64,000 nucleotides of DNA from Melghirimyces profundicolus (GTDB lineage Bacteria; Bacillota; Bacilli; Thermoactinomycetales; DSM-45169): assembly GCF_003054245.1 (NCBI RefSeq), contig NZ_QBKR01000016.1, positions 1-64,000 of the forward strand, in the 5' to 3' direction. Positions within the stretch are counted from its first letter, which is position 1. Each line of letters opens with the position of its first letter. Shown here piece by piece: positions 1 through 62,148 of the stretch. Below the pieces are notes generated by a model. That model saw only the letters and a list, made by a program, of their open reading frames with translations, made no database searches and had not been told where the DNA came from. A program made the position numbers and the translations under genes.

Positions 1-287
1 AAGTCTCGCCTGGGGTCGCTTCACTCCCGGTCTCGCTATGCACTCACAGAGCACAAGTCTCGCCTGGGGTCGCTTCACTCCCGGTCTCGCTATGCTGTCC
101 TGCAGAGATGGTGGCACTGTCCGCTCCGAATCATCCTGCTGCGGGCAGGGGCAAATTCCTGCGGATGCAACACAGAGAAGATTTTGCCCCTGAACGCCCT
201 TGCAGGCTGATTCTCCGCTGGGCAGGACAGCCTATTTCGGGTAAACGCTTCCCTTCTTCTGAGCCTGACTATAAATCACAACGTTTT
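1..287 (+). repeat. Dispersed TIR element, copy A (left part cut by window edge)
   Basis: Shares long near-identical blocks with the copies near 41.1, 50.1, 58.6 and 62.0 kb. It contains a 54-bp direct duplication (about 1-54 and 55-95) of the block beginning AAGTCTCGCCTGGGGTCG. A conserved stem follows, CAGGGGCAAA pairing with TTTGCCCCTG around 145-195. It ends with the shared right arm GGGTAAACGCTTCCC ... ATCACAACG near 240-285. Short ORFs inside it recur as similar peptides in other copies, which fits conserved DNA rather than a gene. The stretch 1-413 otherwise holds no gene that I can support. Confidence 0.85.
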
Positions 288-7815: not shown

Positions 7816-8002
7816 AAGAGCCCTGAGATGTGCGTGAAATACCGACAGTTTTGAGCCAACACCATCACAAAGGGAGCCTGGTGGTCACCTGTGAGCGCGA
7901 ATGCCTGAAAAAGGACTCGTTAACACAGGTGCAGGGCACCCACCTGCCGAGAGCAGGTTCAAAACTTAGGGAGCCACGGCATAATGGGGCTCTTATTTTT
8001 TT
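7816..8002 (+). ncRNA. ssrS: 6S RNA
   Basis: A transcript of about 185 nt whose ends form a closing stem (AAGAGCCC at 7816-7823 with GGGGCTCTT at 7986-7994) followed by a T-run. The inner sequence has the family look: CCCTGAGATGTG on the 5' side, a long imperfect hairpin, and GGGAGCCACGGCATAATGG on the 3' side. 6S RNA binds sigma-A RNA polymerase and mimics an open promoter. The position after aspS matches bsrA of Bacillus subtilis. Confidence 0.88.
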
Positions 8003-30399: not shown

Positions 30400-30433
30400 G
30401 GCTTCGCCGCTCACTTTTTCACAACGCTTCCAG
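30400..30433 (-). repeat. Dispersed TIR element, minimal copy H
   Basis: CGCCGCTCACTTTTTCAC (left end, reversed) is joined directly to AACGCTTCCAG (terminal repeat). It is what remains if the whole interior is deleted. Confidence 0.6.
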
Positions 30434-34509: not shown

Positions 34510-34646
34510 GAGCGTTGTGAAAAAAGTGAGCGGCGGCATTTCCCCGAAGCCGCTCTGAATCTCCCTGCTGCGGGCAGGCAGCAAAGTCGCTGTTTCGGGT
34601 AAACGCTTCCCTTCTTCTGAGCCTGACCATCATTTACAACGCTGCT
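34510..34646 (+). repeat. Dispersed TIR element, deleted copy B
   Basis: Left end AGCGTTGTGAAAAAAGTGAG with the GAGCGGC/GCCGCTC stem, then a jump to the right arm GGGTAAACGCTTCCCTTCTT and end TTTACAACGCT. The middle of about 150 bp found in copy C is missing. Its right end supplies the stop codon of the convergent yitT-like gene. Confidence 0.85.
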
Positions 34647-35209
34647 TGGGGTTTTTTGACACAGATCGAAGTGGCCAGGCCGACGGCGCTGATGGTCAAA
34701 AAGGTGTGGAAAAGTTGGACGGGAGTCAGTATGAAGCTGCCGATTCCGATAATGACGGCATCGATCAGGAAAATCAGGATGCCGGGATTCCATTGGTACC
34801 GGTCGGCGATCAGTTGCGCAAGCAGGTCCGTTCCGCCGGTGCAGGTTTTAAACCGGAGCATCAGGCCGACGCCGGTCCCCACCAGCAATCCGCCGGAGAG
34901 CGCGCTGAACAGGATCGGCCAGTGAATCGTTCCCCTGAGGGGAGACAGCCAGTCGATCAACCATGCGGAGACCAGCATTCCGTAAAAACTGTTGAGGAAC
35001 ATCCGCCGATCCATCATCCATACAGCCAAAAAGATGGGGAGACTGAGCATGATCATGGAAAAACCCGTCTTCATTCCCCACAGGTAGCGGAGGATCAGGG
35101 CCAGACCGATCATCCCCCCGTCCAGCAGCCGGTGGGGAGTCAGAAACAGGTTGATTCCGAGGCTGATCAGCAAACCACCGGCGAGGATCACGGAATGACG
35201 GCAAAGCAT
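34634..35209 (-). CDS. YitT-family membrane protein
   Basis: 191 residues with five membrane segments and the family pattern: GLLISLGINLFLTPHRLLDG near the start, GMLVSAWLIDWLSPLRG, and GLMLRFKTCTGGTDLLAQLI. The usual cytosolic DUF2179 domain of longer YitT proteins is lacking. Start ATG 35209 follows GGAGGAGCGGG. The C-terminus ...KKPQAAL-stop is read inside repeat B, so the original end may have been replaced by the insertion. Function of the family is not known. Confidence 0.8.
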   Translation of the reverse strand: MLCRHSVILAGGLLISLGINLFLTPHRLLDGGMIGLALILRYLWGMKTGFSMIMLSLPIFLAVWMMDRRMFLNSFYGMLVSAWLIDWLSPLRGTIHWPILFSALSGGLLVGTGVGLMLRFKTCTGGTDLLAQLIADRYQWNPGILIFLIDAVIIGIGSFILTPVQLFHTFLTISAVGLATSICVKKPQAAL

Positions 35210-35368
35210 ACCCGCTCCTCCTTCCTGACCGCTGTTCATAAACATTATGTTTGTCCAACCCGTGTTATGAGATGAGTCATCGGAAGGTGTCCATTTTGTG
35301 AAGAACATGCCATCCGGTATACAGCGTTCCCCGGTTGCCCAAGCTGGAAGCTGAAAGGGCGGATCGAT

Positions 35369-37165
35369 ATGCAAACGGAAACCGGAGTTTGGAAAAGGAG
35401 ACTGGTTCCGGTGTTGTTGGTCGCCGCTTTTTGCGGTATTTTGTTTCGGTTGTACTGGATCCAAATGATTGCAGTCCATTCCTTCTCCCGGGAGGAAGCC
35501 GATCTGATCACGGAAGCGGAGGAGCAACAGAGCGGTGTGTTTATGGTGGACAGCGGGAGGGGGCAAATCCTGGACCGGAACGGAATTTCCTTGACAGGGG
35601 AGAGAGATTGGCGGTTGATCGTCTTTCCCTTGTCCGAAAGTCAGTGGAGGGTCGATACGGACAAGCTGAACCGGGTGGCGAGAATCATCGGGCTCTCCCC
35701 CCGGGAGTTCAGGGAAACCGTTAAAGCCTTGCGCCGTCCCCAGGTTCTCCACGACCGGAAAGGCAAAGAGGAAGCCCTGTCGGAGAAGCAGGCGGAAGCG
35801 ATTCAGGAGTTGGAAGTGCCGGGGGTCTACGCCCTGAAGACCGACTACCGGCAGGATCCGGACCGGCTTGCCCGGCAAGTGATCGGCCGGGTGGAACGGA
35901 ATCCGTTTCTTATCCGTGAGCGGTATCCGGATGAATGGACCAACGGAAGGTATCAGGCCCATTCCCGGATCGGAGTGACCGGGCTGGAAGCTGCTTTTGA
36001 ACCCTTCCTCCGGGGTGGGCGGCAGCATTTGCTCACCTATATCACTGACGGAGGGGGACGTCCTTTGAACGGACTCCATATGGCGACCAGGGAAAGTGGA
36101 GGGGCCATCCCCTATCGCGTCGTCAGCACGTTGGATCAGAGGGCTCAGCGAGTGGCGGAAAAAAACCTGGAAGAAGCCGGGGTCACCGAAGGTGCCGTGG
36201 TGGTGCAGGACTTGGCTTCCGGAGATATTCTGGCCATGGCAAGCCGCCCAAGCCTCGAATCCGCGGGAAAAAACCAAAATCCCTGGAACAACCGGGCTTT
36301 GATGGAGATGACCCCTGGTTCCATCTTCAAGACGGTGACGGCCGTGGCGGCGCTGGACACGGGAAAAGTGAAGCCGGGGGAAACCTTTGATTGCAACGGC
36401 CACTTGGGACGTTACGGGATGAAAGACTCCAAGCCCGGCGGCCACGGGCGGCAGAGCCTGGAAGAGGCCTACGCCAATTCCTGCAACGTTGTCTTCGCCC
36501 GGGTCGCTGAACGGGTGGGAGGGAAAACGTTGAAGGATTACGCCCATCGCATGGGGGTTGGAGAGCGGATCCTGTGGTCCGGTCCGGTGTTTAAAGAGAA
36601 GGATTTCCGTCAGCTCCCCCAGGAACAGACCGGGTTGATCTTTTCCAAAGAGACTTCGCTTGAGGATTCGGGGGCGGTGGCCCAGACGGGCATCGGGCAA
36701 CGGGATGTGAAAGTGACGCCGCTTCAGGCGGTGAATATGGTGACGACCCTTTTTCAGGAAGGGAAAACATTGAACCCCCGAATTGCCCGGGAAATCCAGC
36801 GTCCGGACGGGGAGGTGCTTTACCGCTTTCCCCCTCATGCACTCAAGACGGAGAAAAAAATCGCGAGCTTTGCCCTCGAACGGGTGAGGCACATGATGCG
36901 GCTGGCGGTGACCGACGGAACAGCCCGATCCCTGCAGGGGGCCTCCCTTGCGCTGGGCGCCAAAACGGGGACGGCCCAGGTCGGACCGGACAAAGACACC
37001 TACAACAAGTGGATGGTGGGATACGGCCCCTATGAAAAGCCTCGCTTTGCCGCGGCGGTGGTGATCCGTTCGGTCAGAGACAGTGGAGATATGCGCGCCC
37101 ATGAAGTGTTCCGCAAAGTGATGGAAGGGCTTGAAAAAGAGTTGAAGGGGGAGAAAAAAGGGTAA
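35369..37165 (+). CDS. Penicillin-binding protein (class B-type transpeptidase)
   Basis: 598 residues. A single N-terminal membrane helix (LVPVLLVAAFCGILFRLYW) is followed by a dimerisation region with GQILDRNGISLTG. The transpeptidase has SxxK in PGSIFKT (Ser near 315), SxN in YANSCNVVF, and KTG in AKTGTAQ near 531. It forms peptide cross-links in the wall, outside the membrane. Close relatives include PbpI/SpoVD-like enzymes; no PASTA domain is present. ATG follows AAAGGGCG. Divergent from the yitT-like gene. Confidence 0.88.
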   Translation: MQTETGVWKRRLVPVLLVAAFCGILFRLYWIQMIAVHSFSREEADLITEAEEQQSGVFMVDSGRGQILDRNGISLTGERDWRLIVFPLSESQWRVDTDKLNRVARIIGLSPREFRETVKALRRPQVLHDRKGKEEALSEKQAEAIQELEVPGVYALKTDYRQDPDRLARQVIGRVERNPFLIRERYPDEWTNGRYQAHSRIGVTGLEAAFEPFLRGGRQHLLTYITDGGGRPLNGLHMATRESGGAIPYRVVSTLDQRAQRVAEKNLEEAGVTEGAVVVQDLASGDILAMASRPSLESAGKNQNPWNNRALMEMTPGSIFKTVTAVAALDTGKVKPGETFDCNGHLGRYGMKDSKPGGHGRQSLEEAYANSCNVVFARVAERVGGKTLKDYAHRMGVGERILWSGPVFKEKDFRQLPQEQTGLIFSKETSLEDSGAVAQTGIGQRDVKVTPLQAVNMVTTLFQEGKTLNPRIAREIQRPDGEVLYRFPPHALKTEKKIASFALERVRHMMRLAVTDGTARSLQGASLALGAKTGTAQVGPDKDTYNKWMVGYGPYEKPRFAAAVVIRSVRDSGDMRAHEVFRKVMEGLEKELKGEKKG

Positions 37166-37182
37166 GGGACCCGAAAACAAGA

Positions 37183-41067: not shown

Positions 41068-41352
41068 AAGTATGGTGAAAAAGTGAGCGGCGGCATTTAC
41101 CCGAAGCCGCTCCGGCTGCACTCACAGAGCACAAGTCTCGCCTGGGGTCGCTTCACTCCCCGGTCTCGCTATGCTGTCCTGCAGAGATGCAGGCATTGTC
41201 CGCTACGAATCTTCCTGCTGCGGGCAGGGGCAAACGCCTTCGGATGCAACACAGAGAAGCTTTTGCCCCTGAACGCCCTTGCAGGACAGCAAAGTCGCTA
41301 TTTCGGGTAAACGCTTCTCTTCTTCTGAGCCTGACCATCAATCACAACGCTT
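41068..41352 (+). repeat. Dispersed TIR element, full-length copy C
   Basis: The most complete copy, about 285 bp. Left end AAGTATGGTGAAAAAGTGAG; stem GAGCGGC...GCCGCTC; block AAGTCTCGCCTGGGGTCG; stem CAGGGGCAAA...TTTGCCCCTG; right arm GGGTAAACGCTTCTCTTCTT; end ATCACAACGCTT. The ends are imperfect inverted repeats. It starts directly after the ect-side hairpin and ends 15 bp from the pucR-type stop codon. Confidence 0.88.
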
Positions 41353-50002: not shown

Positions 50003-50213
50003 AAGCGTTGTGATGGGTGGTCAGGCTCAGGAGGAGGGAAGATTTAACAGCGGCTTTGCGGTCCTGCCCGGCGGAGAGTCAGCCGGCAAGGATGTTCAGG
50101 GGCAAAAGCTTCTCTGTGTTGCATCCCCGGGCGTTGGCCCCTGCCCGCAGCAGGAAGATTCGGAGCGGCTTCGGGTAAATGCCGCCCGTCATTTTTTCAC
50201 AATACTTTCAGGG
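50003..50213 (-). repeat. Dispersed TIR element, copy D
   Basis: Reverse orientation: AAGCGTTGTGATGGGTGGTC at one end and TTTTTTCACAATACTTTCAG at the other. The outer 15-17 bp are imperfect inverted repeats (CCCTTAGAAGCGTTGTGA with TCACAATACTTTCAGGG). It lacks the AAGTCTCGCC block but keeps the CAGGGGC stem. It lies within the catabolic operon, between hom and the aldehyde dehydrogenase gene. Confidence 0.87.
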
Positions 50214-58509: not shown

Positions 58510-58800
58510 AAAGCGTTGTGATTGATGGTTAGGTTCAGAAGAAGGGAAGCGTTTACCCGAAATTGCGACTTTGCTGTCCTGCCCAGCGGAGAATCAGCCG
58601 GCAAGGGCGTTCAGGGGCAAAAGCTTCTCTGTGTTGCATCCGCAGGCGTTTGCCCCTGCCCGCAGCAGGAAGATTCGGAGCGGACCGTGCAACCATCTCT
58701 GCAGGACAGCATAGCGCGACCGGGAGTGAAGCGACCTCAGGCGCGACTTGTGCTCTGAGAGAACAACCGGAGTGGCTTCGGGTGAATGCGCCGCCCGCAG
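58510..58800 (-). repeat. Dispersed TIR element, copy E
   Basis: Nearly full length, reverse orientation: AAGCGTTGTGATTGATGG at its right-arm end, GGGAAGCGTTTACCC, stem CAGGGGCAAA/TTTGCCCCTG, the CTCTGCAGGACAGCATAGCG and GCGACCGGGAGTGAAGCGAC blocks, and GGCTTCGGGTGAATGCGCCG. The outermost left end (CTCACTTTTTCAC) is lost. The stretch 58386-58867 contains no gene that I can support. Confidence 0.87.
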
Positions 58801-61446: not shown

Positions 61447-61535
61447 CCAGGGTGTGTCTGATCATTACCGCCCGGTGCAGATTTCCATGTGGTGCGGGAA
61501 ATCCGGGAATCAGTCGCCCATGCCGGAAAGGAAAG

Positions 61536-61600
61536 CAAGTTGCTGTTTCGGGTAGACGCTTCCCCCTTTCTCGAAACGAACATTTCAATTACAACGCTTC
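61536..61600 (+). repeat. Dispersed TIR element, right-arm fragment F
   Basis: Only the right arm is clear: GCTGTTTCGGGTAGACGCTTCC then CATTTCAATTACAACGCTTC (both shown shortened here relative to the element). It ends exactly at the stop codon of the convergent membrane-protein gene. Confidence 0.65.
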
Positions 61601-61976: not shown

Positions 61977-62148
61977 TGGAAGTTTGTAAAAAAAGTGAGC
62001 GGCAGCATTTACCCAAAGCCGCTCCGGCTGTACTCACAGAGCACAAGTCTCGCCGGGGTCGCTTGCTCCCCGGTCTCGCTATGCTGTCCTGCAGAGATGG
62101 TTGCACTGTCCGCTCCGTATCATCGAACATGAAACACAACGCTTCCAG
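61977..62148 (+). repeat. Dispersed TIR element, copy G with internal deletion
   Basis: Left end TGGAAGTTTGTAAAAAAAGT, stem GAGCGGC.../GCCGCTC, ACAAGTCTCGCC block and TATGCTGTCCTGCAGAGATG, then it jumps to GAAACACAACGCTTCCAG. The outer TGGAAG/CTTCCA bases extend the inverted repeat. Confidence 0.85.

Follow-up and report, generated by a model that had tools for sequence, protein, structure and literature searches.

At positions 41068-41352 of the stretch of DNA analysed here (the window: the first 64,000 bases of contig C16 of the 3.77-Mb, 67-contig draft genome of Melghirimyces profundicolus, Thermoactinomycetaceae) lies a non-coding sequence that recurs, whole or in part, at several other places of the same contig. 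What kind of repeat is this, what moved it, and what does it carry? An earlier note, made from the letters alone, had described it as a MITE- or REP-type element with inverted-repeat ends, variably deleted inner modules and no transposase. We read it as very probably a high-copy non-autonomous DNA transposon (MITE) of composite, BOX-like anatomy that would depend on an IS1182-family DDE enzyme supplied in trans and that carries inside it a small unit, here called m54. The outer part of the element is referred to as the shell.

Copies, ends and target sites

When two copies, C (41068-41352) and A, were compared with the window by blastn, copies were recovered at every place that the earlier note had listed, in both orientations, and the matches bore out the variable deletion of inner modules; no transposase lies inside the copies, again as described before. 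The copies and the m54 units within them are the following.

1-286, plus strand: copy cut by the contig start, with a partial m54 (1-40), a full m54 (41-94), core and right end
30405-30430, minus strand: relic, left terminal end only (blastn E 0.001, the weakest of all copies)
34510-34644, plus strand: short form with both shell ends, without m54, core mostly deleted
41068-41352, plus strand: full copy (copy C), flanks ATAG/ATCG, 3 of 4 bases equal
41119-41173, plus strand: m54 unit within copy C, 55-bp form
50003-50207, minus strand: form without m54, flanks TTAG/TCAG, 3 of 4 bases equal
58511-58794, minus strand: long copy with one m54, outer left end degenerate (blastn E 9e-94)
58710-58760, minus strand: m54 unit in this long copy, profile positions 4-54
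61529-61599, plus strand: right shell end only (blastn E 2e-6)
61979-62144, plus strand: copy with one m54 and a truncated core, terminating in CACAACGCTT (blastn match 61979-62124, E 1e-48)
62031-62083, plus strand: m54 unit in the copy at 61979-62144

The first copy (blastn match 39-286, E 2e-83) starts partway through a tandem repeat whose unit measures 54/55 bp. The short form was matched in pieces (34521-34643) and, by eye, has CTTG on both sides after a one-base shift of its ends, a case that stands outside the 22 duplications counted below. Two reading frames run into copies: the 3' end of a YitT-domain frame (34634-37180, minus strand) enters a MITE end at 34634-34644, so that its last codons are probably element-derived, and the listed start of an aldehyde dehydrogenase frame lies within a copy (50179-50207), the true start perhaps being downstream. 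The only Rfam match of the window at the gathering threshold is a 6S RNA (7817-7994, 103.6 bits). At the copies no Rfam family was matched, either in the window at that threshold or in three further loci (L050, L053 and L054) at E up to 1; L054, from genome G009, holds a T-box leader candidate on its minus strand (182-428; 86.4 bits against a gathering score of 93, E 2e-18).

The repeat is not limited to the window, and we estimate the family at roughly 220-310 copies genome-wide. A first-look search gave 313 candidate places, 40 of which were scored, and the terminal sequence AAGCGTTGTGA occurs exactly 228 times (117 + 111), compared with once (1 + 0) for a reversed control pattern. The stretches read, from this genome (714 kb of 3.77 Mb) and from relatives, were partly picked around known matches, so that raw densities, such as the 2.5% of the 714 kb occupied by 76 element intervals, are biased upward; we therefore scaled by the exact ends, 78 of 228 of which fall in the sample, and arrived at about 220 copies. 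With genes called by a crude codon-usage script, under which 78% of the sample is coding, the midpoint of an element fell inside a called gene in only 3 of the 76 cases; the neighbouring genes are tandem for 41 elements, convergent for 13 and divergent for 8, and 11 elements sit at stretch edges, compared with 271 tandem, 66 convergent and 68 divergent gaps in the sample as a whole. The median pairwise identity among 26 near-full copies is 93%, and the minimum of 44% stems from one of these seed copies (L017), which entered the shell profile in the wrong orientation.

Any match to copy C was obtained in 11 of 61 genomes. Exact ends number 228 in the genome of the window, 186 in G009, 89 in G004, 68 in G007, 12 in the sister species (G001) and 0-5 in the remaining five genomes of the family, with reversed controls of 0-3 across the ten. 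These counts point to a shell that was amplified in only some of the genera, with little amplification in the sister species.

Both ends of the element carry AAGCGTTGTGA as inverted repeats. Their inverted nature had been recognised before; the true ends, AAGCGTTGTGA...TCACAACGCTT, are one base longer than the AGCGTTGTGA then given. Among 42 two-ended copies assembled from 111 recognised ends, 22 have identical 4-bp flanks, whereas mispaired flanks give 2.6, and 10,000 shuffles gave a mean of 3.0 with none reaching 22; where both ends have at most one mismatch, the fraction is 17 of 29. A perfect 4-bp duplication is absent from the other 20, and none of the 42 shows a direct repeat of 5 to 8 bp. 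The duplicated words are mostly CTAG-like (CTAG, CTAA, TTAG, CTGG, CCAG), and 18 of the 22 are non-palindromic, which argues for direct duplications as opposed to an extension of the inverted repeat. Direct duplications of this kind are what a DDE transposase usually leaves behind. At two places (G000:C15 near 97028; L142 1245-1270), two element ends adjoin each other and share a single CTAG, as when one element inserts beside, or within, an end already present.

Terminal inverted repeats, a target duplication of fixed length, and short, numerous, mostly intergenic copies are thus all present, and the MITE half of the earlier assignment stands on these features as well as on the occurrence of the same ends beside a transposase gene in relatives. 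The comparison of empty sites in related strains that had been proposed gave no clean empty site in any strain pair. Among the named genomes, a protein of the window had one relative, which belongs to Melghirimyces thermohalophilus DSM 45514 (80% for its best segment), where the intergenic sequence equivalent to that at 41068 is too diverged for the exact junction to be seen, and nhmmer, at E up to 1, gave no element match on the 109.6-kb contig G001:C22. In the homoserine/aldehyde dehydrogenase gap of M. thermohalophilus (L070, ~1770-1840), a sequence resembles a decayed left shell end and is perhaps an old shared insertion, although the same contig has no nhmmer match.

The likely motor and its rivals

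Judged by shared terminal sequences, the parent of the element is likely an insertion sequence (IS) of the IS1182 family; lying outside the window, it had escaped the earlier note, as had the tandem 54-bp unit. Two broken IS copies in related genera (G004 and G007) carry the terminal sequence of the element beside CTAG, in G004 with CTAG on both sides. The G004 copy (G004:C32; L130 516-1969, 1.45 kb) is bordered by CTAG at both ends. One end is canonical and is separated by 43 bp from the transposase stop; the other, AATTGTGAAAAAGT, lacks three bases of the canonical form and lies 94 bp before the start. In the G007 copy (G007:C162; L142 from 1260), CTAG-AAGCGTTGTGAAAAAGT precedes the counterpart of the G004 start by 91 bp and the first ATG of its own frame by 55 bp; the 17 bases AAGCGTTGTGAAAAAGT are common to the MITE left end and the IS end, which abuts a MITE copy so that the outer CTAG belongs to both. 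The right end of the G007 IS copy was not found, an exact end at L142 3163 having the wrong orientation for it.

All five open pieces of the two broken transposases score best with NF033551 (IS1182) in NCBIfam, each below the whole-protein cut-off because the pieces are partial, and four of the five match PF05598, PF01609 or PF13751 in Pfam. When 42 genomes of the order were searched by tblastn, the G004 and G007 proteins proved 57% identical over 272 residues, compared with at most 41% for the other matches longer than 100 residues among those listed. Shorter fragments reach higher values (71% over 41 residues in G007:C107; 51% in G004:C44), and N-terminal pieces in G001 are 46-52% identical. 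The follow-up fetched 30 loci among the matches listed, leaving out G007:C107 and G004:C44; the fetched G001 loci have no element ends. Exact ends were found at the two IS places only, among 91 fetched transposase loci (10 + 10, 41 and 30 in three scans, several overlapping) that reach about 1.5 kb to each side and are in many cases cut by contig ends. The transposase with matching ends that had been sought is thus represented by two broken copies in related genera and by none in the genome of the window, which has three IS1182 fragments, 33-40% identical and without ends in the fetched DNA; as it has only these fragments, the elements appear to have outlived a motor that is either lost or missing from the sequenced DNA. 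An intact partner with element ends was not found by tblastn in the 42 genomes, and G009, a single-contig genome, has 186 exact ends yet only a 27% identical homologue. In G014, another genome of the order, the IS1182 transposase query found 23 matches, of which a good number lie at contig ends; they perhaps derive from a recent multicopy IS.

Under the MITE reading, the shell with its AAGCGTTGTGA termini would be, or would have been, inserted in trans by an IS1182-family DDE transposase, insertion at CTAG-like sites would generate the 4-bp duplications, and an enzyme not found in the genome of the window would be what moved the elements. The MITE could also be real and its motor belong to a different DDE family with 4-bp targets, such as IS5 or IS701, for CTAG/YTAR-like 4-bp targets are not confined to IS1182; literature support for such targets outside IS1182 was not found. 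However, when the fetched PF01609 loci of five genomes (9 matches in the genome of the window; 23 in G001, G004, G007 and G009) and the loci of 10 PF13546 matches in the ten genomes of the family were scanned, exact ends appeared only at the two IS1182 places, both also recovered with PF05598, which makes another DDE family improbable as the motor. The REP half of the earlier assignment fares worse still. REP/BIME and REPIN sequences are short, dispersed, palindromic intergenic DNA, and a REP-like repeat moved by a RAYT-type transposase would likewise be short, palindromic, intergenic and present in many copies, as the Melghirimyces element is, but the 4-bp duplications and the inverted ends speak against it. 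Moreover, the genome gave a single Y1 match, which belongs to an IS605-type pair made up of a TnpA gene and a following OrfB_IS605/TnpB frame (L049; G000:C7 75767-79120), and this 3.35-kb locus contains neither m54 nor an exact or near-exact element end. With no RAYT gene flanked by repeats at this locus or, by the m54 profile, at 22 Y1 loci, we give the RAYT explanation hardly any weight.

The inner unit m54

Bases 50-107 of copy C match far more places in relatives than does the rest of the copy. The m54 profile recognised 105 units in the 714-kb sample and 0-28 in the stretches from other genomes; the unit occurs in five genera of the family (that of the window, g2, g3, g4 and g7), with one diverged unit each in G019 and G027, from other families. 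Elements in the stretches read carry 0 to 7 units head to tail, and the 52 arrays of the M. profundicolus sample hold one unit (26 arrays), two (15), three (5), four (2), six (2) or seven (2). A unit starts within 60 bp of the contig end at 27 of 73 sampled ends (49 starts, 24 ends), to be compared with a share of less than 1% of the sample for 105 units of 54 bp, so the arrays are probably longer than assembled. Long or near-identical arrays would stop assembly, and the window starts in such an array; m54 would account for many of the breaks in this draft.

The unit occurs in at least five different surroundings in the five genera, shell A and at least four others.

Shell A: the genome of the window, G007
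Variant with shell A ends but a different interior: G009, G004
Shell B, with GGCGTGTCTG-like ends: G008, G003
Third outer sequence with a B-like interior: G008
Another outer sequence: G002
Another, sharing part of the core found in the genome of the window: G009

The second MITE-like shell, with GGCGTGTCTG ends, carries m54 in stretches of G008, G003, G009 and G007 (for example, L203 13954-14145) and is often flanked by YTAG and CTAR, a pattern compatible with a TA duplication or with a longer inverted repeat. Direct repeats of 4 bp at shell B ends were not supported: 3 of 47 candidate pairs, many of them paired by chance, had them, compared with 2.3 expected.

The two flanks of the B/C interior occur together at 19 places in G008, of which 5 are empty, 13 carry a single unit (truncated in one case) and 1 carries two. 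In the five empty shells, CTTTG is joined directly to CGC without duplication, and one copy in the genome of the window (C2:43674) is empty just as exactly, GGCTG being joined to CTG, again without duplication. Filled and empty shells thus differ by exactly one unit, and whole units come or go without trace, a result that fits slippage between short TGC repeats and dedicated insertion alike. Tandem inner units that vary in number, down to zero, within outer modules make this a BOX-type anatomy. Under our preferred reading, the simplest ways for the number of units to change would be slippage during replication and unequal crossing over, and the first arrival of m54 in each kind of shell would require a separate event.

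On the strand opposite to copy C, m54 has a well-supported predicted hairpin. In an alignment of 80 of 119 distinct full units (all 59 from other genomes and 21 of 60 from this one), which spans the five genera of the family and includes one unit of G027, 80.8% of the cells are standard-paired, compared with 17-37% when the structure is slid. Cells with both sides changed number 48, compared with 16.9 (sd 3.1) in shuffles, none of 500 reaching the observed value, although kinship among units inflates such counts. The main compensatory pairs are 18-25 (GC to AU, 16 units) and 48-55 (UA to CG, 20 units); an internal position of two pairs is a tandem G.A/A.G in 64 of the 80 units and has standard pairs at both places in 8 others. 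With the two G.A positions left out, G-U cells number 56 against 23 on the other strand, which favours one strand. Two of the five covariation measures, those for pairs altered on both sides and for additional pair types, are no higher than in the shuffles, and RNAalifold gives only 3 pairs from the same alignment, so that the hairpin rests on the named structure, which was chosen after a first covariation look at 140 distinct units, on largely the same units. Taken together, the inflated counts, the two weaker measures and the RNAalifold result mean that formation of the hairpin as RNA is only suggested, by the G-U count.

Apart from the MITE reading of the shell, and in addition to it, m54 itself might be mobile, for example, as a miniature single-strand transposon of the IS200/IS605 kind that inserts 3' of NNTG without duplication. 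It would then be a second-order parasite, a 54-bp two-hairpin module that enters and leaves different MITE shells exactly, invading unrelated shells and its own end and building head-to-tail arrays; the shells that it enters would probably owe their own movement to different transposases. The variety of surroundings across the five genera, the exact difference of one unit between empty and filled shells (5 of 19 places in G008 and one in the genome of the window being empty), and the two hairpins of the unit, the smaller close to one of its ends and the larger ahead of TATG at the opposite end, all agree with this possibility. Nevertheless, precise loss by slippage between short TGC repeats yields the same products, the flank is not TG in shell A', and no Y1 transposase turned up in G009 or G004, both rich in m54. 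By the m54 profile, a unit is present in 4 of 22 Y1 loci (3 places; a raw count), the nearest 226 bp from the Y1 match, and no Y1 gene bounded by m54-like ends was found in these loci. We consider a mobile m54 rather unlikely; were it true, the unit would target its own end, thereby building tandem arrays, and would have spread in this way through several genera of one family.

The hairpin also raises the question of whether the repeat, and m54 especially, is kept for a role at the RNA level, as a terminator, attenuator or transcript stabiliser, with its spread being secondary. The compensatory changes and the one-sided G-U excess would be expected in that case, but hairpins matter for DNA mobility, too; the elements favour no single gene arrangement, the 3 pairs from RNAalifold and the two measures at shuffle level weaken the structural argument, and the sister species does with far fewer copies (12 exact ends). 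We accordingly regard retention for an RNA function as improbable. For the MITE with m54 inside, the different shells, filled and empty to the base, offer a testable case for how an inner unit arrives and multiplies.

Comparison with known systems

The repeat set of Melghirimyces, its likely parent transposon and the hairpin unit common to several different elements appear to be new, whereas modular repeats (BOX) and IS1182-driven MITEs are, as general kinds, already in print. The earlier suggestion that the repeat is undescribed for this group was not contradicted: in the parts of the literature available to us, nothing relevant on a described repeat of this bacterial group was found.

The BOX elements of Streptococcus pneumoniae and S. 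suis are, according to the accessible part of the report, composite and MITE-like, with outer modules, a variable number of tandem boxB units and predicted hairpins; they have terminal inverted repeats with target duplications and ends like those of ISSpn2, and in S. suis two different outer shells surround one type of boxB (PMC3049150). Slippage, unequal crossover and excision-reinsertion are named there as options for the change in boxB number (PMC3049150). The likeness that we draw is one of anatomy, in that outer modules enclose tandem inner units in numbers from none to many, and it implies no claim of homology. The Melghirimyces unit has 54 bp and its likely motor is of the IS1182 family, in contrast to the ISSpn2-like ends of BOX, and m54 occupies more surroundings and spans five genera, with single diverged units in two genera outside. 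Composite repeats of the BOX type would thus extend from streptococci to another family of Gram-positive bacteria, where they are tied to a motor of the IS1182 type.

On the side of the motor, the closest parallel is MITEPye1 of Paracoccus yeei, described in the excerpted report as a non-autonomous element with IS1182-like terminal inverted repeats, 4-bp direct repeats, mostly intergenic location and stem-loops (PMC11578231). The Melghirimyces element shares the IS1182-type ends, the 4-bp repeats, the intergenic placement and the stem-loops; MITEPye1 differs in having 1-3 copies per chromosome, 18-bp terminal repeats and, as far as that text goes, no reported tandem inner unit. ISPse1, a member of the IS1182 family, to which the transposases of both partner IS copies belong, is likewise recorded with 4-bp direct repeats in the part of the source at hand (PMC3281130). 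IS1272, according to the excerpt available, replaces a target inverted repeat and leaves no duplication (PMC5678879), unlike the Melghirimyces element. From REP/BIME and REPIN sequences, finally, this element is set apart by the lack of a RAYT link, by its 4-bp duplications and by inverted ends of the DDE type.
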